DNA of 64,000 nt from Tribonema minus. Lineage: Eukaryota; Sar; Xanthophyceae; Tribonematales; Tribonemataceae. The position numbers and the translations under genes were made by a program. The notes beneath the pieces were generated by a model that saw nothing but the letters and a program-made list of their open reading frames with translations, ran no database searches and was not told the DNA's origin. The DNA lies in assembly GCA_017506865.1 (NCBI GenBank), contig JAFCMP010000002.1, forward strand, positions 1,550,001 to 1,614,000. The letters run 5' to 3'. Shown one piece after another: positions 9,048 through 56,300 of the stretch (within the stretch, counting starts at the first letter, position 1; each line of letters starts with the position of its first letter).

Positions 9048-10469
9048 CAACTTTGTACTTTTTATTAATTCTCGCTCAGGGCGCGAAAAAGCCCAGATGA
9101 TTGGCATCTAGCTGTAAGGAATCTACATGTCGTATGACAGTCTGAAAGTGTCGCAACGACAACCACTCAAACGCCGCCGCCGCCAAATGGCATCTCGGGG
9201 TCCTCCCCTACGTCCTCCTCCATGTGCCCCCCCCCCTGGATTCTGCCATGTGTGTCATGACACGGCCAGAGTACGCCATGTGGAGCGCTGCCGACAGTGC
9301 CGAGCGTAAGCGCGCCAGGGCGATGCCCTTGAGAGCTTTAGGGCGCGCTCCTCCGGGCACTGACATCCTGCTGGCATACTCCGTCGCCACAGCCTCCAGC
9401 AGCTTCCGCCCCTGCTCCCCGATGCTGCCAAATGACCCTATTGCCAATGTGGCAAGTTTGTAGCAATTCTGATCATAATGACCAGAATAGTGGGTAGTCT
9501 TGGCGGCCTCTTGGTCGCGGCAGCATCGCTCGGGGTCTGCTGCAGTCTTCGCCGCCCGCGACGCCACCTGTGCCTCGAAGCAGGTAACGTCCACCATGAG
9601 CGGTAGGTGGCGTGTCGGGTCGTCGTAGCCGGTCACCGGGAAGGCGTCGGCAGGCAGCACGATGTCCATCCTGCGACTCCCCGGCGGCCCGGCGGACCCC
9701 AGAAACGGCGTGTAGTCCTCGTCCACCAGTCCCGTTTTGAGGTATTGCCGCAGGAGGCGCTGCGTGGCCCTCTTGACGCTATTGTGGACAATAGTGTCGT
9801 GCGCCTTGACGCGTGGCGCTTGACACAGCCGTGCATGCAGGGTGCCGCCCGGCGACTTCCCGCACAGCTTGCAGCCTGCCGTCTGCTCCTCTACTCCGAT
9901 GGCGCGTTTGACGGCCAGCTGCCAGGATAGGCCATCGAACGAAGCCGTTGTGGAGTACATGGGCTCGTTGAGGAATGCCATGCCGATCGAGTGCATGTGG
10001 CGCTGCGACCGGAATCGAGCAAGTGCTTGCGTGCGTTGCGTGCCCTGCGGCAGCTGTTGCAGGTCCGCCTCCACCTTATCTGCAAGCTCGGTAGCGACGG
10101 CATCTGCAAGCGCACTCTGATTGGGGCGCTTCAGGCTACACTGCAACTGCAGAGCACTGGCATCAAGTACGCAAGCAGCATCCGCACCAGTGCCACCACC
10201 TGCTGTCGGCCGCAGCGGCGGCTGCTGCGTAGGTGGTTGCTGCTGCAGTGGCGTTAGCGCTGGTGGCAGTATATGTTCCAGCTTGTCACCTGTTGCTGCA
10301 CGTAGAGATGTGGCAGCTGTGGCGATCGTCCGCATGAGGGGCAGGCGCGCCACCTCTGCCGCTGCTGCGCCTTGTAGCATTGCTGGTGTGGAACGCGCAG
10401 CGCCTGCATTGACGGCTGCCGCTGCTGCGTGCGCTGGTGCTGCAGCTGTGCCGCCAACTTTGTACTTTT
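9048..10469 (-). mobile_element. LINE-like retroelement copy A, 5'-truncated, with target duplication
   Basis: On the minus strand the copy runs from the Ala-rich coding region to a 3' UTR that ends GAATTAATAAAAA|GTACAAAG. A 15-bp direct repeat, CAACTTTGTACTTTT, flanks it (9048-9062 and 10455-10469) and reads as a target-site duplication. Only the C-terminal part of the LINE ORF is present; no reverse transcriptase domain remains. It is almost identical to copy B, which indicates recent insertion or duplication. Confidence 0.75.
9208..10380 (-). CDS. LINE C-terminal fragment: CCHC finger plus REL-type endonuclease-like domain (copy A)
   Basis: The open frame has about 390 codons and its 5' start is set by truncation, so it is a fragment and not a complete gene. 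After an Ala/Gln/Pro-rich part comes a region typical of the sequence after the RT in non-LTR elements (SWQLAVKRAIGVEEQ). Next is a CCHC-like finger, CKLCG-x6-LHARLC, then a helix-rich HDTIVHNSVKRATQRLL. A PD-(D/E)XK-like core follows (GSRRMDIVL, then LMVDVTCFEA), with a conserved DQ-containing segment and a C-terminal SFGSIGEQGRKLLEA. Finger followed by nuclease is the order found in R2-type elements, where the nuclease nicks a preferred target. The family assignment rests on motif order only. The frame differs at the very end from copies B and F by a homopolymer C difference at about 9230. Confidence 0.6.
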   Translation of the reverse strand: MLQGAAAAEVARLPLMRTIATAATSLRAATGDKLEHILPPALTPLQQQPPTQQPPLRPTAGGGTGADAACVLDASALQLQCSLKRPNQSALADAVATELADKVEADLQQLPQGTQRTQALARFRSQRHMHSIGMAFLNEPMYSTTASFDGLSWQLAVKRAIGVEEQTAGCKLCGKSPGGTLHARLCQAPRVKAHDTIVHNSVKRATQRLLRQYLKTGLVDEDYTPFLGSAGPPGSRRMDIVLPADAFPVTGYDDPTRHLPLMVDVTCFEAQVASRAAKTAADPERCCRDQEAAKTTHYSGHYDQNCYKLATLAIGSFGSIGEQGRKLLEAVATEYASRMSVPGGARPKALKGIALARLRSALSAALHMAYSGRVMTHMAESRGGGTWRRT

Positions 10470-10499
10470 ATTATATTCCACTTGTGGCTGTGGAAATGC
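10470..10499. other. 30-bp spacer between LINE copies A and B
   Basis: The sequence attatattccacttgtggct and its continuation separates two 15-bp CAACTTTGTACTTTT repeats (10455 and 10500). It appears to be the remaining host or older element sequence into which copy A inserted, at the 3' junction of copy B. Confidence 0.5.
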
Positions 10500-12424
10500 C
10501 AACTTTGTACTTTTTATTAATTCTCGCTCAGGGCGCGAAAAAGCCCAGATGATTGGCATCTAGCTGTAAGGAATCTACATGTCGTATGACAGTCTGAAAG
10601 TGTCGCAACGACAACCACTCAAACGCCGCCGCCGCCAAATGGCATCTCGGGGTCCTCCCCTACGTCCTCCTCCATGTGCCCCCCCCCCCTGGATTCTGCC
10701 ATGTGTGTCATGACACGGCCAGAGTACGCCATGTGGAGCGCTGCCGACAGTGCCGAGCGTAAGCGCGCCAGGGCGATGCCCTTGAGAGCTTTAGGGCGCG
10801 CTCCTCCGGGCACTGACATCCTGCTGGCATACTCCGTCGCCACAGCCTCCAGCAGCTTCCGCCCCTGCTCCCCGATGCTGCCAAATGACCCTATTGCCAA
10901 TGTGGCAAGTTTGTAGCAATTCTGATCATAATGACCAGAATAGTGGGTAGTCTTGGCGGCCTCTTGGTCGCGGCAGCATCGCTCGGGGTCTGCTGCAGTC
11001 TTCGCCGCCCGCGACGCCACCTGTGCCTCGAAGCAGGTAACGTCCACCGTGAGCGGTAGGTGGCGTGTCGGGTCGTCGTAGCCGGTCACCGGGAAGGCGT
11101 CGGCAGGCAGCACGATGTCCATCCTGCGACTCCCCGGCGGCCCGGCGGACCCCAGAAACGGCGTGTAGTCCTCGTCCACCAGTCCCGTTTTGAGGTATTG
11201 CCGCAGGAGGCGCTGCGTGGCCCTCTTGACGCTATTGTGGACAATGGTGTCGTGCGCCTTGACGCGTGGCGCTTGACACAGCCGTGCATGCAGGATGCCG
11301 CCCGGCGACTTCCCGCACAGCTTGCAGCCTGCCGTCTGCTCCTCTACTCCGATGGCGCGTTTGACGGCCAGCTGCCAGGATAGGCCATCGAACGAAGCCG
11401 TTGTGGAGTACATGGGCTCGTTGAGGAATGCCATGCCGATCGAGTGCATGTGGCGCTGCGACCGGAATCGAGCAAGTGCTTGCGTGCGTTGCGTGCCCTG
11501 CGGCAGCTGTTGCAGGTCCGCCTCCACCTTATCTGCAAGCTCGGTAGCGACGGCATCTGCAAGCGCACTCTGATTGGGGCGCTTCAGGCTACACTGCAAC
11601 TGCAGAGCACTGGCGTCAAGTACGCAAGCAGCATCCGCACCAGTGCCACCACCTGCTGTCGGCCGCAGCGGCGGCTGCTGCGTAGGTGGTTGCTGCTGCA
11701 GTGGCGTTAGCGCTGGTGGCAGTATATGTTCCAGCTTGTCACCTGTTGCTGCACGTAGAGATGTGGCAGCTGTGGCGATCGTCCGCATGAGGGGCAGGCG
11801 CGCCACCTCTGCTGCTGCTGCGCCTTGTAGCATTGCTGGTGTGGAACGCGCAGCGCCTGCATTGACGGCTGCCGCTGCTGCGTGCGCTGGTGCTGCAGCT
11901 GTGCCGCCTGCCGTTGCTGCTGCTGCCAGTGGTGTTGCTGCTGCCGCAGGTGTTGGTGCAGCACCTGCCGCATTGGCCGCTGCCACCGCCATTGCCGCTG
12001 TCGCAGCCGGCACGGTTGCGGCGCCGCCTGCCGACGCTGCTCCTGTTGCAGGTGCTGCAGCAGCCCTTAGGCTAGTAGGGCCTGTAGCAGCTGTATTGCC
12101 TATGCCCGCAGCCGCTGCTGTTGATGCTGCAGTTAGTGATGCCGCCGAGGCCACTTGAGGTGCAACATGTGCTGCCGCTGCTGCAGCAGCCTCTGATGCT
12201 GGAGCAGCTGCTGCTGCCGCCGCTGCTGCTGCCGCCGGAGTAGTTGCGCCGTGCGCCGCCGCTGCTGCTGCTGCCGCTGGTGCCGCCTGTGCTGCCGCCG
12301 CGGCCCCTGATCCAGCGGCAGCTGCGTCGTGTGTTGCCGGAATGGCTGCGCCATAAGCGCGGCCAGCCGCTGATGCAGTTGCCGCTGCCGGAGCGACTTT
12401 GATGGTTGAACAGTGGCACGTTTG
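10500..12424 (-). mobile_element. LINE-like retroelement copy B, longest copy
   Basis: This has the same 3' end and tail as copy A (AATTAATAAAAA|GTACAAAG on the minus strand). It extends further 5' through a long Ala-rich segment to about 12424, where the 3' end of a third copy begins. Copies A, B and C are therefore head to tail. Even this copy has no reverse transcriptase motifs, so it is 5'-truncated or a chimera with low-complexity DNA. Confidence 0.72.
10619..12154 (-). CDS. LINE C-terminal protein, Ala-rich plus CCHC and REL-like domains (copy B)
   Basis: The frame has 511 codons from the ATG at 12154 to the stop at 10619. It is also open upstream to about 12424 with more Ala, so the ATG is only the first Met. 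About 190 N-terminal residues are almost entirely Ala with Thr, Pro and Gly. After them come the same CCHC finger (CKLCG, LHARLC), GSRRMDIVL and LMVDVTCFEA motifs as copy A, ending in an acidic and Gly-rich tail (EEDVGEDPEMPF, GGGGV). The substitutions from copy A are few and mostly conservative (T/I after GG; V/M silent-class changes). Without a linked RT it could act only in trans. It may also simply be a dead fragment. Confidence 0.6.
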   Translation of the reverse strand: MASAASLTAASTAAAAGIGNTAATGPTSLRAAAAPATGAASAGGAATVPAATAAMAVAAANAAGAAPTPAAAATPLAAAATAGGTAAAPAHAAAAAVNAGAARSTPAMLQGAAAAEVARLPLMRTIATAATSLRAATGDKLEHILPPALTPLQQQPPTQQPPLRPTAGGGTGADAACVLDASALQLQCSLKRPNQSALADAVATELADKVEADLQQLPQGTQRTQALARFRSQRHMHSIGMAFLNEPMYSTTASFDGLSWQLAVKRAIGVEEQTAGCKLCGKSPGGILHARLCQAPRVKAHDTIVHNSVKRATQRLLRQYLKTGLVDEDYTPFLGSAGPPGSRRMDIVLPADAFPVTGYDDPTRHLPLTVDVTCFEAQVASRAAKTAADPERCCRDQEAAKTTHYSGHYDQNCYKLATLAIGSFGSIGEQGRKLLEAVATEYASRMSVPGGARPKALKGIALARLRSALSAALHMAYSGRVMTHMAESRGGGHMEEDVGEDPEMPFGGGGV

Positions 12425-12567
12425 TACTTTTTTATTAATTCTCGCTCAGGGCGCGAAAAAGCTCAGATGAATGGCATCTGAGTTGAAGCTTGCTGTACGG
12501 AATCTACATGTCGTGTGACAGTCTGCAAGTGTCTCAACGACAACCACTGAAACGCGCGTTTGTATTT
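12425..12567 (-). mobile_element. LINE-like copy C, 3' end only
   Basis: The stretch gaattaataaaaaagtacaaa (minus strand) heads a diverged 3' UTR of the same family (gggcgcgaaaaagctcagat, ctacatgtcgtgtgacagtc). It lies directly 5' of copy B in the same orientation. About 120-140 bp are recognisable before the right inner edge of the large inverted repeat. Confidence 0.65.
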
Positions 12568-12810
12568 TTTTTTGGCTCTCGCTTAGGGCGCGACAAAGCC
12601 CAGATGGTGGACGTCGAGCTTGCTACCGTAACCACATGGTATTGTATCTTGTGAAATGCGCATTGCCGAATACTTTTGAACGACACCACCAAATGGCATC
12701 TCCCCCCACAGTGTCCTCGTCCATCTGTCCACACGCTTCAGACTCTGCCATGTGTGTCATGACATGTATAATACAGAGTACGCCATGGAGAGCGCTGCCG
12801 ATGGAGCTGA
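12568..12810 (-). mobile_element. Diverged relic of LINE 3' end at inner edge of right arm
   Basis: Inverted partner of 7595-7855. The minus strand shows ggcgtactctg-type sequence, catggcagagtctgaagc, ggtggtgtcgttcaaaag and the 3' UTR-like gggctttgtcgcgcc. The two arms therefore end inward in LINE tails that face each other. Confidence 0.6.
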
Positions 12811-13451
12811 AAATGAGTCACATATACACATGCCGACAAGTGTGAGCTGTGCGGCACACCAGCAGAAGACTGAATTGCGTGCACAACATCTGATCCAGTC
12901 ATCTCATACATGTCAGTTCAGACATTGGCAAATTGATAATCACCGCATCATGCAGGTGCAGCGAGCATGCAGGCAACGCACAAGCAGCAACAACACCATC
13001 ATCCAATGCATGATCAATACGTACAACACCATTATTAGCACCTACTCTTTGGCCATACGGCCAAGCATTGCAAACCCACACACTCCGAAAGCCAACAACA
13101 GTGTGCTTTGCGCCCTTGCATGCCACAAGTCTCTTGTCGACATACACGATACCGCCGAAAGACCTTGCACATTGCTGCTGTCCTGCTAAGGTACGTACAA
13201 ATCCGCCAACACTGCAAAGGTCTTCTATTCACAACCCACGGAGCTGCAGCAGCACGAGGGCTGTGCAACGCCGACTTATGCCACACTCGCAAAAGGGGCC
13301 TTTTCAAACAAACTGAGACGACTCTGAAGGGTGTGCGGCGACACTGCTGGCACACACGGAAACCCCAACGTAGACACCGTGGGGTCATGACATCTTGCGC
13401 ACCAATAGTTTGCGCCATGCTGACGCCCACAGCCATTGTGCAAGCACCCTA

Positions 13452-16400
13452 CTAAGGGAGGGATGTCATCCACGGTGGGCGAGCCACCACGAAGGGGTTG
13501 CCTTGCGCCTGCACACCTGCTGGTGCCGCTGCTGCCACCGTCGCGGGCAGCCTGGCGCTCACGCGGAGCACTGCTGCCGGCGCCGCAGCCAGGGGGCGGG
13601 GGTCCTGCCAGCTGACCCGAGGGCGCTGCGATGGCCTCACAGGCTGTCCCATCTCCCCTATCGCAGCAGCCCTTGCTGCAGCAGTAAGCTGAGCACTGCC
13701 AGCCGGCCTGGCGGATCCGCCCGCGGCGCTGACAGCAGCTGTGGCAGCGAGCCTATTGCCCTGCCCCTCTGCGCCAAAGCTGCACTCAGCATCCTCCTCC
13801 TCCTCCTCCGCTGCGCGCGCACCGCCCTCGCTGGGGCAGTCGCTGAGGCAGCCGTCAGACTCATCCGCTGCGACGGCGCCGTTGCTGGCATGCTGAGCAT
13901 TGCTGATGTGGGCGCTGCCGCTAGCTGCGAAAAAGTCATTGCTGCGCCCTCCCACTGCTGCTGCCGCTGCTGCTGAGATGGTGAAGGTGCGCTTACGAGG
14001 CGGCGCGTCCTCACTGCGAGGCGCGCACTTGCGCTTTCGCCCAGGCAGCTGTGAGCTCGCTGCACTGATCGGCTCAGCATCTGCACTGCTGCTGTCGCTG
14101 CCGCTGCCACTGCCGCCGCTGCCGCTGCCGCCGCCGCCGCTGCCGCCATGCGTGCCGCCTGCTTCACGCCTTGCGGCCCCCTGGGCATGCTTGTTTCCTG
14201 CAAGCCCTGCAGCGGCAGCTGCTCCCACGTCAGCGGGCGCTGCTGGAGGCTGCTGCGCAGGCTGCGCGCAGTAGCCCGGCGGGTGGATCCTCGCTCCCGA
14301 CGCAACCCCATTGCTGCCGCCGTAGTCTGGCCACACGTCTGCAGCGCTGCCACCATCCTCACGGTCGCTGCTGTACACGAACGGCTGCAGCGAAAGCGGA
14401 GGAGTAGCCAAGCGCGCGGCGGTGGCAGCCATGGCGGCGGCGACGGCGCTGCTGATGATGCTGCTTTGCTCTGCTGCGTGCGCCCTGGCATGCGCAGCGG
14501 TGCCGCTCTGCTCTGCCGATGCGGCGCGAAGGCTGCCCATGCGCGCTCTCACTGCCGCAGCTGCCGCTGCCGCCGCCGCTGCCGCGTCAAATGCTGGCTC
14601 TTCTGCCGCCGCCGCTGCTGCTGCCGATGCTGGCCCAGCGGCGGCACGCTTGCGCGGCGGCGTGTCGTCAGCGGGGGCGCGCTTGCGCTTTCGTGAGCGC
14701 AGAGCTGCGGAGTCCCCTGGGTCCAGCTCCGCGCCTGCATGCGACGCGTCGCTGTTGCCAGGTGTGCTGCTGTCTCCGTCCGCACGTGCGCTGGCGCCGT
14801 CGCTGATCTGCTGACTAAGGCCGCTATCAGAGCAGTCTGCCGCGCTGCCGCTGATGCTGTTGTCGCCACTGACATGACGCGGGGGCACCGCAGGCTCCTC
14901 TTCTAGCGCAGATGCCGCTGCCGAGAGCAGCACCGCATTGGCGCAGCTCACGGCAGCCTCCTGCGCGTCATCAGCGGCGTCGTCAACTTGCTGAGCGCTG
15001 CTGTCGCTGTTGCCGTGCTCAAACGCAACCCCGTAGGCTAGGGCTGCCTCTGCTGCTGCGGGCGGCGCCTCGTGCTGCTGAGCATTCATCTCGCCATGCT
15101 CCTGCGCTAGCGCAGCGCTTGGCTGCCCAGCTTCAGGCCCCACCATGTACTGCGCCGCCACCTGGCGAGAGAGGACCTCCATTAAGGCATCCTCATCACT
15201 ATAGCTGCGGCTGCGGCGGCGCCTGCCTCCACTGGAGATATCTGGGGGGTCGCTAGCAGTGGCGGCAGCAGGCGCAGCGCTGCCATCAGGGTCGGCGCTG
15301 CTGGTGACACTGACGGACGCAGAGTCCATGTCAGCATCACCTGCGCAGCTGTCGTTGCAGGCGCTGCGGTAGCCACTGGACGCAGCGTCCATGTCATCAT
15401 GGTCGCCTGCTGCGTCACTGTCGCGGGCGGAGTATATGTCGCACTAACTAGCGGCGTCGCTGACATCCTCGGCATTGCAGCTTCTAGCGCCGCCGTACTG
15501 AGCGCTGCTGTCGTCCATGCTGCTGCTGCTGCTGCTGCCGCTGTGCTGTGCGCCGCCGATGTCCATGCCGTTGATGCTGTAGTCGCCACTGGCATGATGC
15601 GCGGACACAGCAGGCTCCTCTTCTAGTGCAGGTGCCGCTGTCGCTGGCGGCACAGAGTCGGCGCAGCTCGGCGCAGCCTCCTGCGCAGCATCAGCGGCGT
15701 CGCCGGCTTGCTTAGCGCTGCTGTTGCTGCTGCCGTGCTCAGAAGTGGCACCGTAGGCTGGAGCTGCGGCTGCTGCTGCGGGCGGTGCCTCGTGTTGCTG
15801 AGCATCCATCTCGCCGTGCTCCTGCGCCAGCGCACCGCCTGTTGAGCCGGCTTCAGGCGCCACCATGTACTGCGCCGCCACCTGGCGATAGAGGTCCTTC
15901 ATCAGGGCATCCTCATCGAAAGAGTCGGCGGGGCGGCGCCTGCGCCTGCCTCCACTGGAAAAAGCAACAGCATCGCTAGCAGCGGCGGCAGCGGGCGCAG
16001 CGCTGCCGTCTGGGTCGGCGTTGCTGGCGACACTGACGACCGCGATGTCCATGTCAGCATCGTCTGCGCAGCTGTCGTCGCAGGCGCTGCGGTAGCCACT
16101 GGACGCAGCATCCATGTCATCATGGTCGCCTGCTGCTTCGTTGTCGCTGGCGGAGTAGATGGAGCAGTCGTCGGAAGCACCGCCGACATCCTCGGCATCG
16201 CAGCTGCTGGCGCCGCCGTGCTGAGCGCTGCTGTAATCCATGCTGCTGCTGCTGCTGCTGTGCTGTGCGCCGTCGACACCCATGCCGCCGTGTTCGCTGC
16301 TGCTGCTGCTGCTGCTGCCGCTGCTGCTGTGTTGAGCGCTGCCGACGTCCATGTCGCTTCCGTTGCTGTCGTCACCGCCGCTGCTGCCGCTGGCGCTGCC

Positions 16401-16749
16401 GTGCTGAGCGTTGCTGCTGCTGCTGCGCGGAGTACTGCTGACGGCAATGACGCCTCCGCTGCTGCCGCCGGCGCCGCTGCTGCTACTGCTCTGCAGAACG
16501 AGGACACCGGACCCAGGTCCTGCTGCTGCTGCCATCGCTGCCGCTCTTGAAGTGGCCGGACGTTTACGCGGCGGCGTGTCGACTGCATCGTCATGCGCTC
16601 GGTTGCGCTTGAGCAGGCGTGCCACTGTGGGGTCCTCCTCCTCTGACTCATCGGTGGAATAGCCGCTGCCGCTGCTGCTGCCGCTGGGACTCGTGTGCCT
16701 TGGCCAAGCCGTTGGCATCGCGTCCGATATTGGACCGAGCGTGGCATGC
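13452..16749 (-). pseudogene. Right-arm copy: Ala/Ser-rich nuclear-type protein, zinc finger deleted, in-frame TAG
   Basis: The large last exon runs from the acceptor CATGCGTAG|G (exon starts 16749) to the stop at 13452. It stays in one frame throughout, interrupted only by TAG at 15444-15446. The left copy has GAG at the same codon (GCT AGT GAG TGC), so this is a one-base nonsense change. It shares the two ~210-aa repeats and three basic RKR...PxRKR motifs with the left copy. The segment with the RanBP2 finger is missing: about eight residues replace about seventy near 14515-14545. Upstream, the 763-bp intron 16750-17512 joins in phase to the exon ending CCTGCGCT|GTGAGT. Read-through of the TAG cannot be excluded but is not needed to explain the data. 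Confidence 0.72.
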
Positions 16750-17512
16750 CTACGCATGAGGAAAGCAACGTGCATGTTCATCAGAAATGTAATGGGAATG
16801 TACAGTAGCATGTTACACGTTCTCATATTTTTGACAGTTGAAACGGCCTGTCAAGAGCATCACTGCCTGCACTAACAAACATAAACACCACATTCTGTTG
16901 GGTTCAATGCATGATATATAGTTGCTGCATGTAACATGACCCACACCAACAGGTTGTGTACACGTTGACATTCAAATATGTATATATTGACCAATTGTAG
17001 CGGAAATCACTCCACAATACTGTTCTGTAGATGGGAAGCTGACTACCTGCCTCCTCTGAGCACTGCAACGCGCTGCGAGAAAACCTTGGTTGGCACACCT
17101 GCAGGAAGCTCCCACCATTTAGGCCCATCATGAACCATGAAACTTGAGTGAAGTTCACGGTAAAAATAGTAAAGCATGCCAGCTCAGCAGCTTCTTAGTG
17201 GAAGTCCTGGCCTTGCGCCGTAGTGCGCGCAATCATGCCATCACAGCTTCCGGAAGAGGATACCGGCAGGCAAATGAGGTCATGAGCATCATATTGATCA
17301 TAAGAATAGGAACGTTGAGGTAGCACAAGCGGGCAAAGCGGGCTAGTTCAGTGCCACTTTGTGATCACACTTTGTAGCAATACGAGAGGTACGAGATACT
17401 TCCACAACAGAATCCTGTACTGGTGATTGAATGCCAGAGGCAGGACTCAAGGCGCAGGCACAGACTTCTACGTGGGCAGACACTGATCATAAATTGATAA
17501 TCGAAGACTCAC

Positions 17513-19350
17513 AGCGCAGGGGAAGCAGGGGGGGTGGCTGACCATGCTCCACGCTGGACCTCTTGACGCGCCTCCGCCGCCGCCGCCGCCGCCGCCATTG
17601 CAGGTGCCGCTGCTGCCTCCGCAGCTGCGCGCGCTTGCACCACTTCACTGGTCGCTTGGCTTAAGTGCTGCCGCGGTGCCTGCTGCTGGCGCCGCCAGTG
17701 CCGCCTCTGCAGGTCCTGCTGCCGCCGCTGCTGCCGCCGCTGCTGCAGGTTCTCCTGCATGTTCAACTGCGTTTGGCGACGCTCCATCTGCTGCCGCCAG
17801 TACTGCGCGTGCGCCTCATTCCGCCACGCCTGCTGCGGGACACCCTCCGAATCACCTCCGTCGAACGCGTGCGCCGCTGCCGCAGCCCCAGCGGCGGCAC
17901 CGAACATCGAGCTCTCGCTGTTGCGTTGTCAGAAAACGATGTCCGCCTCCACCGCACGCGTTGCGTTGCCAGGTACGGCGTCTACGCGCGGCTCCTGCGC
18001 CGCCGCCGCCGCCGCCGCTGTCGCAACCGCTGCCTCTGCTGCTACGGGCTCTGCTGCCGGTGCTGCTGCTGCTGCTGCCTCTACTGCTCGCTGCGCATCA
18101 ATGGCTCCTGCGCAGGCCGCCGCCGCAAGCGCAGCTGGCATCGCTGCTGCATCCAGCTCCTTCGGATGGCAACCCCCCTGCCATCGACGGCGCCGCCGCG
18201 GCAGTAGCTGGCAGCGCTCCCTCCGCCGTCGCCGCTGCAGCATCTGCGGCGGCAGCGCCTCCGTGCACACGCGCCGCCGCTGCCTCCGCCACTGCGCCGT
18301 TCTCTGCTGCGTCATCTGCAGCAGCAGCAGCAGCAGCACCGCATGGTGAGACCAGTGGCGTAAGATGTATTTGTGAGAAGGTGTGCGTGGTTGCATGCCG
18401 CTCCAAATATGTGCGGAAGGTGGATGAGCACTGTGGCTGCAGTAGCAGAAAATTGGGGGCTGTGCCCAGCCGCGGCAACACATGTTGTGCAATAGACTAT
18501 ACGATCTCTGACCATGCGGCGGCGCTGACAGAGTAAGCAGTAGCTTGTGTATATGTGGAGCGCATGCAATCGGTGTGCAGAGTCCAACTGATAGTGCTAC
18601 GGTTCCACAAGCCTGCAGTGTACGCTACAAGCACACACACGAGCATGAGACCTTACCACTGCCTTGTAGAATGTCAAGATACAATACCAGTACTGGAGCA
18701 GTCAGACATCAAGACATGTCAGCAGATGACATTTTGAATACATTTCTTGCTAGAATGTACTACACAGTAAATCACTGCATGCATAGGCGTCCCTGGAAAC
18801 GAGCATCATCAATGCCCTGACCGGCAAGTGTCAGCCTTTCTTCTGCACTGACATATTTCAACTGAAAGTGAATACCAACCATCCATGCCATGACACATCT
18901 TGTGAACGGTCCGCTTCAAACCCTACCAATCGCACCACCTCAACTGCATACTTCAACTTTTTGTACTTCAAGACCCACCTCCTCTTTCCGCAGCAGAAGG
19001 CTCTACGCCCACCACGTGAACACGTGATTCGCCCGCACGCACTGTCACATTGTCCACCGCCGCTGTGATGAGTCCCAAGTTTGCAGTATCTGCCTCCGCC
19101 AGCTCTGCTGCAGGCTGCGTCTCCGCGTCCATGGCTCCTGCGCAGGCCGCCGCCGCACGCGCAGCTGGCATTGTTGCTGCGTCCAGCGCTGCTTCCGCCA
19201 GCAAACCCCCTGCCATCGCCGGCGCCGCCGCAGCTACAGCTGGCAGCGCGCCCTCCGCTGCCGTCGCTGCTGCAGCATCCGCAGTGGCAGCGCCCCCGTG
19301 CACATGCGCCGCCGCTGCCTCCACCGCTGCGCTGTCTCCCGCTGCGTCAT
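17513..19350 (-). pseudogene. Upstream exons of right-arm gene, tandem duplicated exon pair, one copy broken
   Basis: Two homologous exons lie on the minus strand, 19350-18979 and 18315-17513. Both start with a phase-1 acceptor (GCAG|ATGACGCAG) and share Ala-rich sequence (AHVHGGAATADAAAAT against ARVHGGAAAADAAAAT; APAMAGG against APSMAGG). The first ends with the module LGLITAAVDNVTVRAG ... HVVGVEPSAAERG and donor GGAG|GTGGGT (phase 1), so it splices in frame to the second. The second has a small deletion near 18165 that shifts frame and an in-frame TGA at 17929-17931. It then continues as a Gln/Arg-rich helix (QYWRQQMERRQTQLNMQ) to the donor at 17513. These breaks suggest the right-arm gene has decayed. 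Gene start not found. Confidence 0.55.
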
Positions 19351-20200: not shown

Positions 20201-20202
20201 AG

Positions 20203-27351: not shown

Positions 27352-38597
<11,246 letters not shown>

Positions 38598-43687: not shown

Positions 43688-43824
43688 GGCTGAGTGTACT
43701 TTTTATTAATTCTCGCTCACTGACAGGGCGCGAAAAAGCCCAGATGATGGTCTAACTTGATGCTGCTGTACGGAATCTGCATGTCGTGTAACTTCTGAAA
43801 GTGTCTCAACGGCTGAGTGTACTT
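43688..43824 (-). mobile_element. LINE-like copy D, 3' end only, with 14-bp target duplication
   Basis: About 110 bp of the 3' UTR (gggcgcgaaaaagcccagatgatgg, tacggaatctgcatgtcgtg) ends AATTAATAAAAA|GTACACTC on the minus strand. The direct repeat GGCTGAGTGTACTT lies at 43688-43701 and 43811-43824, showing a clean 5'-truncated insertion. Confidence 0.8.
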
Positions 43825-44062: not shown

Positions 44063-44476
44063 ATGTACTTTTTATTAATTCTCGCTCAGGGCGCGAAAAA
44101 GCCCAGATGATTGGCATCTAGCTGTAAGGAATCTACATGTCGTATGACAGTCTGAAATTGTCGCAACGACAACCACTCAAACGCCGCCGCCGCCAAATGG
44201 CATCTCGGGGTCCTCCCCTACGTCCTCCTCCATGTGCCCCCCCCCCTGGATTCTGCCATGTGTGTCATGACACGGCCAGAGTACGCCATGTGGAGCGCTG
44301 CCGACAGTGCCGAGCGTAAGCGCGCCAGGGCGATGCCCTTGAGAGCTTTAGGGCGCGCTCCTCCGGGCACTGACATCCTGCTGGCATACTCCGTCGCCAC
44401 AGCCTCCAGCAGCTTCCGCCCCTGCTCCCCGATGCTGCCAAACGACCCTATTGCCAAAGTGGCAAGTTTGTAGCAA
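44063..44476 (-). mobile_element. LINE-like copy E, 5'-truncated
   Basis: Near-identical to the last ~410 bp of copies A and B, from the SFGSIGEQGRKLLEA region to the 3' tail AATTAATAAAAA|GTACATGC (minus strand). A short direct repeat (atgtact) flanks it at 44063 and 44478. The 5' truncation point is inside the codons for KLATLAIG. Confidence 0.8.
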
Positions 44477-45164
44477 TGTACTACGGCATAATGAGTGGAT
44501 ACCCCCCTGATACCCCCACTGGCATCCCATGCACAGTCAGACGGTCGAATTGTTTGCCAAGTGATGCATCATGATGTAACAGTTGATGATCATCGATGCA
44601 GTTTCCTGTGCCGATCGCATATGAAGCCATGCAAGATATCTGCACCATGCGCGTAGTCTGCAGGCGCGTCTGACTTCGGAAGCGATTGACCATTCGTTGA
44701 CCATTCGTTAAACTTTGCAGACTCGCAGCCCTCGCCCTCCACGCACGAGCGGAAAAAGTGTTGTTCCTGGTCAAGTACTACTTGGGCCTTTATAAATATA
44801 CGTACTACGTCAGATTCCAGGGGGAGAGTATTTAGCATTTCCAAAAGACCCACCTACCAATAATAATAATGGCATTGGTTGCCATTTGGTCGCACCTCCT
44901 AGTGCGTGTGTGGGGGGTTGTGTGTGGTGTGTGTGGTCAAAGTTGTCGGTGTATTTCTGACAGAAATTCGAATACTATTGAAAAGGTTTGACCGTTCCCG
45001 TGTCTCTTCACATGTGGTGGATCCTGAACTATAATGAAGTAATCGTGCTGGGGCAATTGATTGCCCACTCCATTCCCAACGTTGTACAGGTTTGCTGCGC
45101 AGGAGCGGCTGGTGGCGCGGTAGGGAGCCCCCGTGATTGTTAGGTGAGCCCCGCATTGCACTCG

Positions 45165-45660: not shown

Positions 45661-46371
45661 GTCAAAGTACTGCGTAGGCCCTCACTGTAAGAAATTCAAT
45701 GTAACAAATTGAATGACACAACAACAGTGTTGTCGACCTCCAGTTCAAAATCTGAATCAGCGGTGCACATCTCCGTACGTCTCACAGAATTGCTTGTGCA
45801 CGAGTACGGGCAGCGGCTGAGCTGCCATGTTTCATGCAGCGGGCGATAGAATCGGCCAACACTAAAATCATCCTAAAACACAAGACTTAGTGAGTCACCA
45901 CTGTATTATCAGAATCAAACGAACAACCACAGGTGCTGCCGTATCTTTTTGCAGCACCGTAGTGACTAAAGCACCTAAACTCGTTCTTGCCAGACACATG
46001 CAGTGCCATGGCTGCAGCAATAGTTCTGGCGTGCATTCTCCATGTAAAACGCGCATGCAGTGCACGTAGTGGTACCAAAGCTTGAAGGACTCTCAGACTC
46101 AGACTCTGTCACAATGTGAAAGCTGCGCGATTAGTCAACGTAGAATATTATCATGACCCAGTCAGTCGCAGAGGTGGTGGTCAGAGGCGGCTTTTGTTTA
46201 AGAATGGTAGCAGTTTCTCGATTTTGTGGCTGTTGTCGCAGATGTGTTGAGCGCAAGTGGCAGGCAACCATGCTGATGCAGATGGAAGTCTATCACTTAA
46301 TAGTTCAACAAAGTTCTCTCTTTGTTTGCATGCACTGCCAGGCAGCTCATCCCGCCAGCAGGCACATGCCA

Positions 46372-46460
46372 TCAGTGAAATTGTCTCCACACGTTCAACT
46401 TCTGAATCATCCCGAGGAGTCGGAGCTCCTTGTCGTAGATAGGGCACTCGTGGTCGTTTA
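46372..46460 (-). pseudogene. Possible Ty3/gypsy RNase H scrap
   Basis: The short reading NDHECPIYDKELRLLGMIQK followed by LNVWRQF resembles the RNase H entry motif of Ty3/gypsy polymerases (Y-x-x-x-D-K-E-L-L-A-x ... W-R). It stops at 46372, and no integrase or RT neighbours are seen on either side. If real, it is a very small relic. Confidence 0.35.
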
Positions 46461-47379
46461 ATGAATTACAAAGTGTTGGCCAGCGAGTAGCGTGAGCCCG
46501 CCTTGATGCACTCCATGAGCTTCTCTCGCATGCCAGTGGCCGGTGCCTGATCCCGTTGAGCCACTGGCAGTTCAAAGCTTTAGTCTGACTCAGAGCCGAG
46601 CATACAAATCGCTCTGCTTCGGGCGTAGTACCATTGGTGCGTGGCACGCTCCGGGCAGGTCATCAACACCTCTGAGGTTGACCACTTGTGGTAGTACGCA
46701 CAAATTCACCTTCATACTTGAAACCGACGCAATGATCAGGTGGCCTGGCACTGCATATTTTCCTGCCAGTGCGGTAGCATGTCCGCTCGTGTGAGACCAA
46801 AGTCACTTTTGAAAGTGGCAATGCCGGTCATCCTGCTGCTCGCTCGACTTGAGCTGGACCACACATCTTAACTTATCACTGATGGCATCAACGGAAGCGC
46901 TGACATCGACGGTCATGCCATCTGGCGCGCATGTGTATTGAAGTGTGCTGTCCCGCATTGGCATGCAGGCCTGACTGGTTGATCAACCTACGTTGAGTCA
47001 ATCATTTCAAACTCAAGATGACACACCTGGCGCAGGCCACGGCCGCCGTGCATTGGTCGAAGTGCGCTTCTTTAAATCATATGCCAGAAAGCTGCTTAGC
47101 CTCCTTGTACATCACATTCATCTCATGCTGCAGGTGACGTGCATGCCAAGGTGTATGCCATCGTGACGTTGAATGCTGATATAGTTATATGTGATTCCAC
47201 ATTTTTCGTTTGCCTCTGTCAACCGCACATTTCTGACTACTGTATGATGCCTGCACGTGTCTCACATCTCTCTGTCACATTGCTGACTTTCAATCTGCAC
47301 TGGCCTACAGGCACGTTCTGCAGCATCAGCAACCGCTTCAATGGCTGTTGATTTTGCGCATTGTTTCTAGACGTCCGCG

Positions 47380-50300
47380 ATGCAGCGCTATCAGTCCACT
47401 GCAGCACACAGTTGGCACGCTGGCTATAATACACCCCTTAATGTGTACAACAACGCCGCCTTTGCGCAATTCGGCGCAGGCTCTATGGATCCTCAGGCTC
47501 GACGCGGCAGCTCCAAGTTGACGTGGTCCTCAGTCCCAGCTGCTGCTGCTGCTGCGTGGGCGGTGGTGCTATGTATGCTTTCAAGCATGACATGTGCGCT
47601 TGCTTGGGAGCACAACATCGGTGGCAGCCTCAGCAAAGTGATGCAGCGGGAGACGCCCACCCTGGAGGCGGCGACTGCCGGCGCGTTCTTCAACCGCAGG
47701 CTGCCGACGGTGTGCACAGTGTTCACAGCTGTGCAACGATTTGAGGTGAACAGACGACTGTTACAGACCACCTCCTGATTTTACTAGACAAAGTAGCTGT
47801 GTTACAAGTAGTTAACCATGCAAAAGACTTAGTGTGAAACACGTATACGTACCTGGTGAACATCAGCGAGCATCAGGGCCGTACATTTGTGCTTGTAGTG
47901 TCGTTGCATGCCTCGTCAGTTCCGCATCGCAGCTATATGTTACCGCACGCACTTTCCAGGTAACTCGGCAACACGAGTGAGTAAGCATACTGAGTCTTCT
48001 TGGCTGATGGCGCTTGACTGGAGGCAGCGGCAGCAGCTCCTAGAGCATGCAGCGGCTCACACTGCACCATCGTCTACTACATGTTGCATGCGTTTGATAC
48101 CGCATGCTGATGCTTTGGAACTGGCAGTGACGAGGCGGTGGTGGTGCAGCAGCTCAGAAGGGTGCACCATCATGATCGTACGTTGACTTCAGGATGTGAT
48201 CGTACGTTGACTTCAGGATGTCACGGCTGGCACTATGTCATCTGTTGAAGCTTGCTTCACATCGGAACGCCTGAGTGACCACTGGCATGACCACCACAGC
48301 AGAGCATACTGATGCGTTCATCGAGCAGGGCAGCCGTGCTAGAGCCATAGCATTGCGGCAATTGTTTTGGGTTGCCAAGGTGCACTGGAAATTTATTCAT
48401 GGCGTACTTTGCCTGTAAGTCCCTTGTACCATATCCCGTATGTATAGTACCTTGCCATCCAACAATTGTTGGAGCTCCTTGACACAAGGGTTGCTCGGTG
48501 TCCAGAGCTTCACGTACTTGTATATTGGTGCATTCACATACAACCATACATGCATTATCAGCGAAGTATATGTATGCTCAGCACCTGAGGCTATGTTCAC
48601 AACTCAATTTGGTGCTGTTGCCAGGGATCCTTGTTTCTGCTTTTGCCATGCAGTGCCTGTACACGGCAGGGCAGTGCGGACCTGCACATCTGCTGCTATG
48701 TAGCAGCTGCCCCTTATGTTGCCCTTACATGCACCCATGGCTTACGCACGCGTGTGCGACACTCAGCACATCACACTGCAGCAGCAGACGCAGCAGCAGC
48801 TGCGCTCGTTCAGCGACTGATTCTGCAAAGGTGTTGTCTTCTTGCAGTGCAGAAGTTGCTCTGCTGCCTGGCCCTTTGCTGGAGCAAATGAAGACTGCTC
48901 TGCTGAACATTCCTCGCTCTGCTTTTTGTGCCGCGCAGGTCGTTGATGAGGCCGCTTCTTGCAGTGCACAAGTTGCTGCCTGGCCCTTTGCTGGAGCAAT
49001 TTGAGACTGCTCTGCTGAACATTCCTCGCTCTGTCCTTTGTGCCGCGCAGGTCGTTGATGAGGCCGCTTCTTGCAGTGCACAAGTTGCTATGCTTGCTGG
49101 GCCTTTGCTGGTACAGTTGGAGACTGTCCTGCTGAACATTCCTCGCTCTGTCCTTTGTGCCGCGCAGGTCGTTGATGATGCCGACGTCCTGGCGCTCACA
49201 AATTTCATCGCGAGACCCTGCGTCAAGGCATCCGCGATATGGTCCGGCGCGATCGTGCTGATGCAGCCCATCATACTCGGACGGGGATCGTGGCTCGACG
49301 TCCAGGCAGCAGCAGAAGGCACGGCGGCCGCAGTAATTGAAGGCGAGAGGCTCATGAGGATATTCAGCGTGGCCGCGGGCGGGCGGCTGTCGATGGGAGC
49401 TGTCACGCTCTCGAACGGGAAGGTGAGCGAGCGATGAACATGCGAACCGGCTTTACTTATCCTATGTTGACATTTTGGAGTAAGGCCATATTCCTTCATT
49501 TTGCACAAGTATGATATCAACGTGTTTCACATGGGCCTGGTTGACGTACCATGTCATGGTGGCACAAGCAAGGCCTTTCAACGGGGATGGGTGATGCGTG
49601 GCAGAAGTGAACATTCATTGCTTGCAGCCATGCATATACAACTCAGTTTCTTGCATCACCTGTGCTTTAAGCCGCTTTGCAAACGCGTGGTGCCATGTCG
49701 TACATGCGCGAAACCACAGGCTTGTAATGAGTCGCGCTGTGCAGTAGCTGTCAGCAGAGCATTGATGAGGCGACCAGAGGGGGTATGCTGCACGCAGTTC
49801 AACATTACCTGCTCAGCCCTACTTCAACTACTGCTTAGACCCCAGGGTGCCTCACGATAGGGAATATACCCGACTCTGGTGACTGTGTGGGCCGCCCAGC
49901 TGGGGCATTAGCTAATACGGGCGAATGAGCAGAGAGTCAGCTGCCCTCTGTGTCACAGCAGCGACAATGAGTCGCCATTCGGCCTGCGCGAAGGGCCTCT
50001 GACATCATGGACATGCAACAAAGCGCGTGAAGCGCCCATCCTGCTTCTTACTTATCGTCAGCTAAGAACACTTGGTCCCCTTGGTACGCAAGTGTTTATC
50101 TCATAAGCAGACCGAGAATTTTTTTCAGACCCAGGCCATCCTGGTATCGAAGAGCTCAAAAAAATGGGATGGCAAGGTATGTACATCATATGGAATGTGC
50201 ATGCCTGTGGTGACGCAGTCTAAGGCAATTCAACAGAGGCTGCTGGTGAGTCTGGAGAGCGGGTAGCCATCACATCATGCCGCAGTGGTCACCAGTCAAC

Positions 50301-53300
50301 AGTTGTGCTGCCAGCAACAGATATTCTGCGCGTGCTTGAAAACATTTGTCAGTTAATAAGGGTTGTAGGTCTGGTGAACTGGATGCACAGGCTGGCGGCT
50401 AAACCTCCGCTCCTGCGCCTGGGCAGTTTAGCCCTGCCCTTGCGCCCGGTGGCGCCCGAGAAAGAGCGTGTACGGCCCAGGCACAAGGGCGCACATTGGT
50501 GCTCAGCAACCCGCTGAACAGCTATATACCTGCTCAGCAATATATGTGCCCCCCTTGCGCCCCCAGGCTCAACGAGGTTGCGCCTGAGGGCCTGCGCTAA
50601 ACCTTGTGCGCCCCCCTTCCCCCCCCCCCCCCCCTTTCATGTACCCGCCAGCCCTGTGAGTGCAGGTGGTTTGGGCACCGATTCAAGCCTCAACTTTAAC
50701 CTCATTTTTTCTTTTTTTCTTTTTTCGCCTGTGACAGGCTGTGTCAAACACCACTGCAGATGCAGATGTTAGTGGGGGTGCCATAATGGCAGCCTCCGGC
50801 AGCGAGGTGGTACTGGTCAACACGCAGCTGAAAGGCAACAATGCTACAAGAGGTGAGTTCAGCGTCATGCATGCGTGACGTCGCTTTGTCGCAGGATGGC
50901 CGTGATGCCTTTGCACACTTGTATGGGTTTGAAAGTCCTTTCGGTCTGGTTTTGAGATAAACGCTTAAGTACCAAGGCGACCAAGTACTTTGATGAAGAG
51001 CTGACGATAGGTAAGAAGCAGGATGAGAGCTTCACGCACTTTGTTGCGTTTCCATACATGTACATGTAGTTGGATAAGCCCCGACAACACTTAGAGCATG
51101 TATGTACAGTGCACACCTGTTCAGGACACCATGTTGGAGGCGAATGGGCGTGCAGGTAGCGGCAGGCTGAGCACAGCTTTGAAGGCTAGATGACACGGCA
51201 TATAGCCCGCAAATAAGAAGCACAGCAAAGGCGTCAATCGTCGTCATGTTTAACTTACTACGTAGTATATCAGCATATATTTGTGTATGTGCGGGGTGCG
51301 CTGATGGCAGGGAGGGATGCAAACCCTGCAACAGCGCTTCTATGTGCAACGCCGCCCTGAGCAAGGCGGCACCCTGACTCTATCAGTAGCCCGCAAATGG
51401 GCTAAGGCCGATGTTACACATGGTATCACTACGTACTCCTTGTGTAACCTAGCACTACTTTAGGGCATAAGATGTCGCGCATCAGGGCTCCGCTGTCAGC
51501 CTCAACGCAGCTGGCGCTTTTAGAACGTGTGATTGACACGTGGCCTCAACGTGGCAGAGGGGCCAGCAAGTACACTATGTGGGGGAGATTCCTGGAGCAG
51601 AGGAGGAGCTGGACTGAGATGGGTTGTAGATGTTTCAGCCAGATTCTGGTATAATGATGATCTTCGTTGCACAAGGCCTGTTTGTGATTATTGTAGCTGG
51701 CCGGTCAGGGACCCAGGGGTGGTGGTTGTGGATCGACGCCCCGTGATAGCAAATCTAGCAGTGCAACATATTTCGCTCATGCTCATGTTTGCCGCACTCA
51801 TCATGAACCATCAGGCGCCATTTGGAGCCTCGCTCATGCTCATGTTTGTCGCACTCATTGTCGACCATCAGGCGCCAATTCGAGCCTCTATGTGAAGTCG
51901 TAGTGGCACCGGCTACGCTGTACATGTGGCGCTAACCGTAGCTGCTGTAAGCCTCACACTGCGATGAAAGACGAAGACGTGCTGCTTTCCGAGTCAGCGC
52001 ATGTGCAAATCGGACAGAAAGGAAATGCCGGCAGCGATGTGGCGTGACTTTCTGTGGCGTCTGCTCGCAATTGCCATCTTCCACTTCACTATTAGATCAA
52101 AACTACCACTCAATGCCTGTTGCAGATCATCGAAGGCTACTCTAACCACGACTGCTGACATTTCGCCTGTCTTCAACAGTCGTTGTTGCTGCTGGCAGCA
52201 CAATTTTTTGCTGCAATTTAACCACGCATGTGAGCAGAACTGCTGCTCTCGGACAGCAACAAGGTGTATTATTACATACCTCTGGAAGTAGTATATACTG
52301 CACCGCGGTGAGGTAGAGCTCGGGGCCAACGCGGTACCTAATGCGGTACGTGTTGCTACCTCTTGGGGGTACTGCCTCACCGACTTGCACATGAGCATCA
52401 CACTGCACGAATTTACATGTGTCATGTGGCGTCCACCCGTAGCACTGCATGGGCGAGCTGCTGATCAGTCGCCAGGCATTGGATGCAGATGGGGCGTATG
52501 TTTAGATGTTCCACTACTTCAAGTACATGCGCTGGGCAGCGACGCTACTGTCACATGCTCATGCGTGATCTCTCTGCGCACACAGTTTGCTGGTGTGGTC
52601 CACAAAGCCGCAGACCAGTGCGCATGCAATGAGATAGACGACACAGTTGTGCTTGTTTGCATTGCTTCGAGGGTCACTTTGTTGTTGTTGCGTGCTGGGG
52701 AACCGATACCTAGCTAGGCAAGCTATTTGCCCTTGAATGCTACTGCATGCAACTGCCGGGGGTACTTGGCGTCTCATCTGCACCGCTGTGGCAACTCTCT
52801 TGTGTGCGTAGGTGGAGCCATCGCGCTGCTTTCGGAAGCGCATGCCACTCTCACCAACTGCGTTTTTAAGGACAATTATGCTCTACAACAAGGTATGTCA
52901 CTGCAGCAGTTGCCACTACGTCATGATACTTTTATTACTATCATTATCATTAGTAAATGCCATACTACTGGTAGTGTATTGCAAGCCCGACGAGCCCCGA
53001 CGAGCCTCGACCGACAGTTTATCGAAAGGAGGGCAACATGGGCCTGCGAGCTCTTGCCTTGCTCAAAATGCTGACCGGACGCTTTGTACATGATGTATGT
53101 CTAGACGTATGAACATGAATTGGGCACAAACAGCACAAGATGGAGATCAAAGTCAATTCTTCACAATGCAATCAGCAGCAGGGGTGCTGGTCTGAGCCAT
53201 TGTCAGCATATGCGCGTCAAAAAGGCCAATGCTTCATCTTACACTCACCGACTTTTTTTTGCCAGGACAAGCCTGCGCGTTACACAAGTGATATCGAAAT

Positions 53301-56300
53301 CAACCGCTCAATGATTTTGTCCCCAAGAGGATTGACGTCATATCTTTCCTTGGACGTGGCCTGTTAGATCAGTCAGTCACATCAGGTATATGGAACCCAA
53401 CAAAGTGTGAGCTCTTGATCCTGTTTTGTAGCTATTGCCAACTAGAAGCACTTGATTCCCAAGTACACGAGGGTCGTCTCATAGCCAAACTGTTTGCCCC
53501 ATCTGGTATACATGCATTGTCTCACAGCCACACTGAGAAAACTTTTAGAGGCCCTGTCAGCCTGGGACAATGAGCTTCAGCTTAGTCGGATGGCATGGTG
53601 CTTGTAAGTCGGAAACTCTGTTATTGATCGGCAGGCCAAGCTCCCCAGGCCAATCCCTGCGAGTTCCAGTGGCAGCAGTGAGACGTCATTGAGAGCGCAG
53701 CAGTGTGACAAATGATGAACGTTTACTGCAAGCTCTGGTAGAGCCAGTATGATAGTACAGCAGCAGCAGCAGCAGCAGCAGCTCGCACATGCTTATTCAC
53801 TTTGTGCGCTTCGAATCTGATCAAAGCTTGCAGCAGTGACCTGAACAAGCTGCTCTCCCGCAGATGTTTCTGCCAACATTCTGGCACCAGCATGTCAACG
53901 TGCAACAACATGCCGAGCGCCACCACTGCAGGTCCATCTTGACTGGCACGTGCAGGAATGTCATCACCATAACTCTGATGTCACTTCATATCGGTGCGCT
54001 AATGCGACGTACTGAACTTGCGCCACCAAGCTCGGTGCGTGCAGGCAGCGTACGGATCACGACGCTCTTTGCGTGTCCTGCACACTTGCATCCTAATCCC
54101 ATGCTGTCGGCAAGTGCTGGGTCATGTCAAGCACCAACTAGAAATCAATTCATACAATAGCATGACTGAACACTGTAGAACAAGGCCTCGCATTCCGCAC
54201 AAACCATGTACAGCCAACAATATGACCGAACAAGGCATGACTGGCTGAAGCAGTTGCGCTTGTATCTACAGTTGTCATCTCTCATTCTTTTGCAGCAGAC
54301 GCTTGCCAAGCGCGTGTGTAACCTTAAGTATGCGTGCAATGCGTACAAGTCAGCCCTGCAGTGCTCCACTCTTACGGTGCTTGACGCGCCTCAGCCTCTC
54401 TGCAGCCCACCATGCATCTTGCATCTCCAGATGATCAATGAGCGTAGCCTTACTGAGGGCGTACCCCTCAACCTGAATGACATATTCTTGTCTTAGAAGA
54501 GGCCGCAAGCGCAAGCGAGGCCGGTCATCTGCGTGCAAACACCAGAACTGTCGGTGGCACTGGCTCAGCAGAGCCATGTTTGAGCAAATGCCAAAACCAA
54601 GTGCGCTGCGCAGCCGAGCATCGCCGCTCCGCACGATGCGCCATCATGCGCTCTTTGAGCTCCTGTGCCAGCGACCTGCTCGTGCCGGGTGCCGCAGCCA
54701 CCGGTTTCCTGTTGACAGCCCTTCACACTGCTATGATATGTGTGGTACGCTTCCCCTGATGCTGCCCTTGCTTTTCGTCTTTATTTAAGAAGAAGTATAT
54801 GTGTCAGTTTTTACATTTATGTGGGCAACAAACAGGGCCTTACTCTTTAGTGACACAACAACCTGTTGGTGGAAAGTCACATAAAACCTATACTATCATC
54901 TTTAATACTTGAGTATAAGCGTACTTGACGCCAGTGCTCTGCAGTTGCAGTGTAGCCTGAAGCGCCCCAATCAGAGTGCGCTTGCAGATGCCGTCGCTAC
55001 CGAGCTTGCAGATAAGGTGGAGGCGGACCTGCAACAGCTGCCGCAGGGCACGCAACGCACGCAAGCACTTGCTCGATTCCGGTCGCAGCGCCACATGCAC
55101 TCGATCGGCATGGCATTCCTCAACGAGCCCATGTACTCCACAACGGCTTCGTTCGATGGCCTATCCTGGCAGCTGGCCGTCAAACGCGCCATCGGAGTAG
55201 AGGAGCAGACGGCAGGCTGCAAGCTGTGCGGGAAGTCGCCGGGCGGCACCCTGCATGCACGGCTGTGTCAAGCGCCATGCGTCAAGGCGCACGACACCAT
55301 CGTCCACAATAGCGTCAAGAGGGCCACGCAGCGCATCCTGCGGCAATGCCTCAAAACAGGACTGGTGGATGAGGACTACACGCCGTTTCTGGGGTCCACC
55401 GGGCCGCCGGGGAGTCGCAGGATGGACATCGTGCTGCCTGCCGACGCCTTCCCGGTGACCGGCTACGACGACCCGACACGCCACCTACCGCTCATGGTGG
55501 ACGTTACCTGCTTCGAGGCACAGGTGGCGTCGCGGGCGGCGAAGACTGCAGCAGACCGCGAGCGATGCTGCCGCGACCAAGAGGCCGCCAAGACTACCCA
55601 CTATTCTGGTCATTATGATCAGAATTGCTACAAACTTGCCACTTTGGCGATAGGGTCATTTGGCAGCATCGGGGAGCAGGGGCGGAGGCTGCTGGAGGCC
55701 TTGGCGACGGAGTATGCCAGCAGGATGTCAGTGCCCGGAGGAGCGCGCCCTGAAGCTCTCAAGGGCATCGCCCTGGCGCGCTTACGCTCGGCACTGTCGG
55801 CAGCGCTCCACATGGCGTACTCTGGCCGTGTCATGACACACATGGCAGAATCCAGGGGGGGGGGGCACATGGAGGAGGACGTAGGGGAGGACCCTGAGAT
55901 GCCATTTGGCGGCGGCGGCGTTTGAGTGGTTGTCGTTGCGACACTTTCAGACTGTCATACGACATGTAGATTCCTTACAGCTAGATGCCAATCATCTGGG
56001 CTTTTTCGCGCCCTGAGCGAGAATTAATAAAAAGTACAAGCTTAGCTTCACTATTGTTCTATCATACTCTTTCACAGAAAAGTGAGCCTCTGGTCTCATT
56101 TGTGTTTGTTCTCAACAACGCGTGCAGGTGGCGCCATCATGCGCTCTTTGAGCTCCTGTGCCAGCGACCTGCTTGGCGCGGCAGCCACCTGTTTCCCGTT
56201 GGCCGTACTTCGCGTCTTGCTCCTATGACATTGGAAACGAGTTCAAATATTTGTAAAGCTCTAGGTAGACGAAGTGAGGTCGCATGTCATGCTTCCACGA

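Follow-up and report, generated by a model that had tools for sequence, protein, structure and literature searches.

Within 64,000 nucleotides of the alga Tribonema minus (contig JAFCMP010000002.1, positions 1550001-1614000, hereafter the window), copies of a long interspersed nuclear element (LINE) end at the bases GTAC, and the question arises whether this tetranucleotide is part of the element or of its target. Analysis of the window and of the whole genome (158 Mb in 554 contigs) points, with good confidence, to a high-copy LINE of the restriction-like endonuclease (RLE) type, probably recently active as judged from its sequence, which inserts at a dispersed tetranucleotide target, rebuilds this target at each insertion and probably shares it with a non-autonomous partner.

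GTAC at the boundaries of the element

An earlier note on this DNA had placed six LINE 3' ends in the window and described their junction as a strict A/GTACA (the slash marks the point of insertion). All six ends are present, at 9059, 10511, 12428, 43700, 44069 and 56033, each at most 4 bases from the positions given there; five of them read AATTAATAAAAA/GTACA, while the end at 12428 has one additional A. In the genome, the 15-mer GCGAGAATTAATAAA of the LINE 3' end has 1,989 exact occurrences (reversed control, 0), which continue as AAAAA/GTAC in 1,759 cases and as AAAAA/GTACA in 1,324, GTAC being expected by base composition alone at about 0.4% of positions. As a 3' flank, GTAC is near-strict, and 'strict GTAC' would have been nearly right; the A that follows is preferred (75%, 1,324 of 1,759) and not fixed, and 'strict GTACA' is too strong.

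Junctions were also read one by one, duplicate copies having been merged by flank before this and the later counts of copies. Of 87 distinct ends, 77 are followed directly by GTAC and 5 by GTAC behind a substituted base of the A tail, and the remaining 5 carry one-base variants of it. A gapped pattern search gave only 7 ends, every one with additional bases ahead of GAGCGAGA.

The 5' boundary shows to which partner the tetranucleotide belongs. Both flanks are available for 97 distinct copies; in 82 of them GTAC begins precisely at the projected 3' end, and in the other 15 it does not. GTAC is found at the 5' boundary too in 72 of these 82, as compared to 12.7% of random stretches of equal size in the window. 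Furthermore, duplications of at least 7 bp starting with GTAC are present in 46 of the 82 copies, as compared to a mean of 5.1 on shuffling the 3' flanks among copies. Because of its presence at the 5' boundary and of these matches, GTAC is part of the target and not of the element; the converse, that GTACA belongs to the element, had been stated in the earlier note as fatal to its proposal and fails on the same counts. At the 5' joint, the 51 copies with duplications of at least 6 bp display an overlap of at least 1 base between duplication and element in 35 cases (mode 1-2), abutting in 2 and additional bases in 14, which is the pattern to be expected of target-primed insertion with 5' truncation and with closure mostly at short overlaps. 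The proposal of a short sequence preference at dispersed sites is borne out by the target duplications, by the site pattern described below and by the spread of matches over many different contigs, as seen for the 133 scored matches to the LINE protein and for the first 100 of the 1,989 ends, which lie on contigs 1 to 8.

Preferred insertion site

The site logo was built from the 51 copies with duplications of at least 6 bp, and enrichment was calculated for the 30 sites left after dropping nested ones, against a background of 1,247 GTAC sites in the same DNA (p values uncorrected for 22 positions). At these non-nested sites A is enriched at -4 (20/30, p 4e-6), -2 (20/30, p 3e-4), -1 (18/30, p 2e-4) and +5 (23/30, p 1e-5), and is not enriched at -3 relative to that background; weaker signals were recorded for C at +8 (p 0.0085) and +11 (p 0.02). 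The preferred site is ANAA/GTACA, with GTAC as the core and an A-rich upstream side. The 30 sites have only ANAA/GTACA in common and do not present the 28S ribosomal DNA (rDNA) insertion site, no search of the rDNA itself for copies having been made.

It is possible, though somewhat doubtful, that the target is set mainly by base pairing: a read-through RNA ending in AAAAAGUACA would anneal to a nicked strand ending in TGTAC-3', and among loosely specific nicks those having GTAC at the end would be the ones selected. The exactness of the junction, where the A run is unchanged in length at 78 of the 87 distinct ends, the preference for A at +5, a base found in most existing flanks (1,324 of 1,759), and the occurrence of TAATAAAA/GTAC in two sequence-unrelated families are all in keeping with such pairing. 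However, the upstream preference for A (at -4, -2 and -1, not at -3) sits across the nick from the primer, and resembles recognition by a protein.

Structure of the LINE and its protein

Full-length copies with a reverse transcriptase (RT), which the earlier note had recommended to look for, were found in three loci (L069, L070 and L071); they are about 5.5 kb long, 99.2 to 99.9% alike, and hold one open reading frame (ORF) of 1,786 amino acids each. RVT_1 at residues 748-952 (E 2e-10), with the catalytic box YMDD from residue 909, is the sole Pfam match of the protein at E up to 1, and no apurinic/apyrimidinic endonuclease (APE) domain was found by this search. Cys/His motifs were seen by eye in the N-terminal part. 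Towards the C-terminus, a CCHC knuckle of the form CX2CX8HX3C (residues 1552-1568) is followed downstream by MD (1620-1621), DVT (from 1646) and KX2HY (from 1676). For RLE LINEs, the available text of PMC5678591 describes a knuckle CX2-3CX7-8HX4C ahead of an endonuclease with the catalytic motifs PD...D...KX2KY, and a spacing PD(X)10-14D is given for the Entamoeba RLE in the accessible part of PMC3118788. As compared to these, the last spacing of the knuckle is one residue short, the PD motif has M for P, and the next D follows after 24 residues, longer than in Entamoeba. By motif order, the C-terminal region appears RLE-like with unusual spacings, and the CCHC finger and nuclease proposed earlier fit in order but not in these details.

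The earlier label 'R2-type' raises the alternative of an R2-clade (rDNA-type) LINE that lost its rDNA specificity, which is considered unlikely. Such an origin would suit the single ORF, in which Cys/His motifs at the N-terminus, RT, CCHC knuckle and RLE-like motifs follow the expected order, and it is on motif order only that the label is based. Nevertheless, phmmer searches run with the complete protein and with its RT and RLE portions matched none of the RT chains of the PDB at E up to 10 (R2 chains being assumed, from the portion of PMC10499050 at hand, to be among those searched), and both the M for P in the PD motif and the long D-to-D spacing speak against it. Membership in R2 is not supported by sequence, and a distant relation is possible.

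The element has the RT-encoding ORF, the 5' truncation and the target duplications of a LINE, and a self-comparison of the three full copies revealed no long direct repeat linking its two ends. Collections of viral contigs and genome contigs gave 8 and 42 pattern matches to the LINE, respectively, 0 of which were confirmed as relatives. Since only 92 exact 5' ends were found, as compared to 1,989 exact 3' ends, most copies are 5'-truncated, some down to about 20 bp (L018, L097). All 133 scored protein matches, the best of 2,826 first-look candidates, are 100% identical over 295 amino acids, and a recent expansion of the family is therefore probable.

Short leaders upstream of the 5' end are common to copies at different loci (L070/L086; L076/L081; L074/L080; L075/L077/L079/L084). 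Several of them contain GTAC; in four, GACAAGTACTT precedes GCGGATAGG, and L077 and L084 share more than 45 bases. These leaders resemble flanking sequence of a source copy that was taken along, and would in that case place the transcription start upstream of the element. Three other loci (L010, L058 and L095) hold older relatives with the LINE's CATCTGGGC 3' segment and other upstream sequence (ACATCCAC), suggesting a sister family; their junctions have GTAC in one case of three and not in the other two.

The second, non-autonomous family

The sequence CAAGTGGAATATAATAAAA, the 3' end of a second family, occurs 458 times, with GTAC next in 429. The unit is 1,058 bp long and has the same 5' end in the three loci fetched with CAAGTGGAATATAATAAAA; its longest frame (328 amino acids) matched nothing in Pfam at E up to 1, and no RT is recognisable. 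The junction reads TAATAAAA/GTAC in 13 of 14 copies and TAATAGAA/GTAC in 1. No 12-mer is common to the unit and the LINE on the same strand, and what the two families have in common is the tail TAATAAAA together with the target. Without an RT, and with the 3' tail and target of a LINE in the same genome, the second family has the features of a partner like a short interspersed nuclear element (SINE), and its tail and target suggest that it is probably mobilised by the LINE machinery. Six of the 12 copies with a 5' flank sit at a LINE 3' end (L007, L031, L056, L066, L108 and the window), a share that is biased, as most loci were chosen for holding the LINE. The RNA fold of the second-family 3' end is more stable than shuffles (z -3.6; 1/200 at least as stable), that of the LINE 3' end is not clearly so (z -1.0; 28/200 at least as stable), and a 3' hairpin shared by both families is not established.

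Nested insertion and rebuilding of the target

Of the neighbour pairs within 1 kb among the first 100 of the 1,989 places, 19 share a strand and 1 has its members on opposite strands, with 0.63 expected per class. Head-to-tail insertion of a copy at the AATAAAAA/GTAC junction of an older one is frequent, as it should be where this junction is itself a good target, and the LINE tail followed by GTACA fits ANAA/GTACA. Each insertion rebuilds the target, and new copies tend to pile up by old ones because the element's own tail with GTAC makes a good landing site.

Such a pile-up is displayed on the minus strand of the window. Copy A (9059-10455; 5'-truncated, 99.7% identical to the full-length copy L069) has an 11-bp target duplication, GTACAAAGTTG, at 9048-9058 on its 3' side and at 10455-10465 on its 5' side, the latter sharing 1 bp with copy A and serving also as the 3' flank of a 35-bp remnant of the 1,058-bp family (10466-10500). 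This remnant ends in TATAATAAAA/GTAC, and its first base is common with the preceding duplication, a third GTACAAAGTTG at 10500-10510 that forms the 3' flank of copy B (10511-12395; 5'-truncated, 99.9%). Copy B retains the C-terminal knuckle and the RLE-like region in an open frame, and its 5' duplication is clear only as far as GTACAAA. Copy B, the remnant and copy A are each followed by GTACAAAGTTG, and this threefold succession reads as sequential insertions at one site. A duplication starting with GTACA, as proposed earlier, is found at copy A, but the length of 15 bp reported for it is reached only by counting the AAAA of the tail.

The frequency of nesting was estimated from less biased samples, in which 2 of 21 copies (contig 1) and 4 of 20 (contig 2) are strictly nested at the element's own 3' end. 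A further 2 of the 21 (L041, L057) look nested without passing the strict rule, and among the 20 another copy is nested at the 3' end of a non-autonomous unit; 2 of the 20 contig-2 copies, both in L095, are outside the listed sites. A count of 18 nested copies among 51 was set aside as inflated, since loci centred on one copy show its neighbours too. With GTAC orientations extrapolated from the window to about 1.1 million, the 1,759 own junctions account for about 0.16% of them, and ANAAGTACA sites are much rarer than GTAC (5,500 when extrapolated from the window, 31,000 from the loci). The motif may therefore account for the larger part of the nesting, with no need for a separate homing step.

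The head-to-tail clusters are improbable as products of template jumping or tandem duplication in place of repeated insertion. In favour of such events, copy B lies next to copy A on the same strand, resembles it at 99.6% over 1,409 bp and lacks a clear long duplication; but several neighbour junctions have GTACNNN duplications of their own (window 9048-10510; L029, L030, L007), and neighbouring copies are truncated at differing points. Under repeated insertion, the element might even propagate its own target, a suggestion that is offered tentatively: the 3' end would supply the upstream half of the preferred site, the adjoining GTAC may enter the RNA as a primer-binding site, and each insertion would leave a good, perhaps better, site, in an arrangement common to two sequence-unrelated families, one of them autonomous.

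Proposed mechanism and points against it

Insertion takes place in one orientation, immediately before GTAC, with variable duplications starting with GTAC; the 3' end of the LINE is nearly fixed (AATTAATAAAAA), and the 5' end, truncated as a rule, often shows a 1-2 bp overlap at the joint. A single protein with N-terminal Cys/His motifs, RT, and a C-terminal CCHC knuckle and RLE could account for these features. The RLE would nick the strand complementary to the displayed one at the A/GTAC boundary, and the exposed ...GTAC-3'OH would prime reverse transcription from the A-rich end of the RNA, that is, target-primed reverse transcription, the nicked end possibly pairing with a read-through GUACA in the RNA. 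The same machinery would mobilise the 1,058-bp family.

Several observations weigh against this scheme or limit it. The 5' boundary lacks GTAC in 10 of the 82 GTAC-flanked copies, additional bases separate duplication and element in 14 of the 51 joints, and the variant junctions among the 87 ends are GTAG (1), GTGC (2) and GGAC (2); one copy (L051) has GTAG in both flanks, so that GTAC is not absolute. Assignment to the RLE type is by motif order only, the protein having no PDB relative by sequence; the 100% protein identity stems from the best-scored candidates only, and another LINE could mobilise the second family. That GTAC is instead the 3' terminus of the element, met at the 5' flank by chance, is hardly credible, for although GTAC follows 1,759 of the 1,989 exact ends as an element end would and those 10 copies lack it at the 5' boundary, 72 of the 82 copies, truncated at differing points, have it there as compared to 12.7% at random, and 46 copies have at least 7 bases common to both flanks as compared to 5.1 by shuffling.

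Other copies and neighbouring sequence in the window

Copy C (12428-12555, minus strand; diverged, 85%), in which the additional A stands ahead of GTACAAACG, is nested at the 3' end of an older relative of the LINE 3' end (12566-12801, minus strand; 69%), whose tail AAAAAAAA is followed by ATACAAACG. A short diverged copy (43700-43811, minus strand; 78%) has a 12-bp target duplication, GTACACTCAGCC, at 43688-43699 on its 3' side and at 43811-43822 on its 5' side, 1 bp being common with the element. The copy at 44069-44477 (minus strand; 99.0%) has a 6-bp duplication, GTACAT. Copy F (54919-56033, plus strand; 98.7%) has GTAC at its 3' junction (56034-56037); its flanks, read by eye, have only these 4 bp in common, and the duplication of about 8 bp attributed to it does not hold.

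Beside the element cluster, 12576-13500 matches 6877-7852 in the opposite orientation with 78% identity, with Ala/Ser-rich open frames on both sides. At 219-2754, the minus strand carries the open frames of a hAT-type transposase; the PF05699 dimerisation domain is found in 219-1454 (E 4e-10), and for the frame at 1636-2754 (minus strand) the sole match, to DUF659, is weak and does not reach the cut-off. A frame at 38145-38597 on the minus strand has a tesmin/TSO1-like CXC domain (PF03638, E 1.5e-11). The genome has 92 matches, many of them partial, to the chlorophyll a/b-binding family PF00504, as befits a photosynthetic organism.

Comparison with known systems

Dualen carries both APE and RLE, and the present LINE differs from Dualen/RandI in that no APE was found in it (Pfam, E up to 1). 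The RandI/Dualen LINEs of Chlamydomonas, too, are algal and have SINE partners (SINEX) to which they are matched through the 3' ends, according to the available text of PMC3747384, in which RandI tails are (ATT)n or (CTATTT)n repeats, whereas the tail here is fixed. Zepp and Zepp-like LINEs of green algae also show nested, 5'-truncated insertion into existing copies; as far as the accessible portions of PMC8226300 and PMC3446292 describe them, however, Zepp is of the L1 clade and clustered at putative centromeres or chromosome ends, unlike the dispersed copies here with RT, an RLE-like end and a defined GTAC target. For the present LINE, the rebuilt target offers a simple reason for nested clusters.

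EhLINE1/EdLINE1 of Entamoeba resemble the present element, by description only, in having a SINE partner and an RLE endonuclease that favours a short sequence for nicking (5'-GTATT-3' in the part of PMC3118788 available); theirs is a nicking preference, measured in vitro, whereas here GTAC follows 1,759 of 1,989 ends. In the open literature on algal and RLE LINEs, to the extent of its accessible text, no LINE with a GTAC target was found, which is weak evidence, Repbase reports being outside its scope. The roughly 2,000 exact 3' ends form a clean natural data set bearing on the nuclease reading, on primer pairing and on what qualifies the SINE-like partner, and a compact RLE with a GTAC-centred preference would, if confirmed, be of interest to researchers of R2-type insertion proteins.

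With R2 and other RLE LINEs (CRE, R4, NeSL/Utopia and HERO) the element has in common one ORF with motifs in the order finger-RT-knuckle-RLE, a fixed 3' end and what appears to be target-primed reverse transcription. According to the excerpted text of PMC4640811, the majority of RLE LINEs have a specific target, which for some is a microsatellite, and HERO includes many non-specific ones. The present target is instead a dispersed 4-bp core with an A-rich side, and not an rRNA, tRNA, snRNA or spliced-leader gene or a microsatellite. What is known of RLE LINEs is either a long target, gene-like or a repeat, or a looser preference, and a near-strict 4-bp target differs from both.

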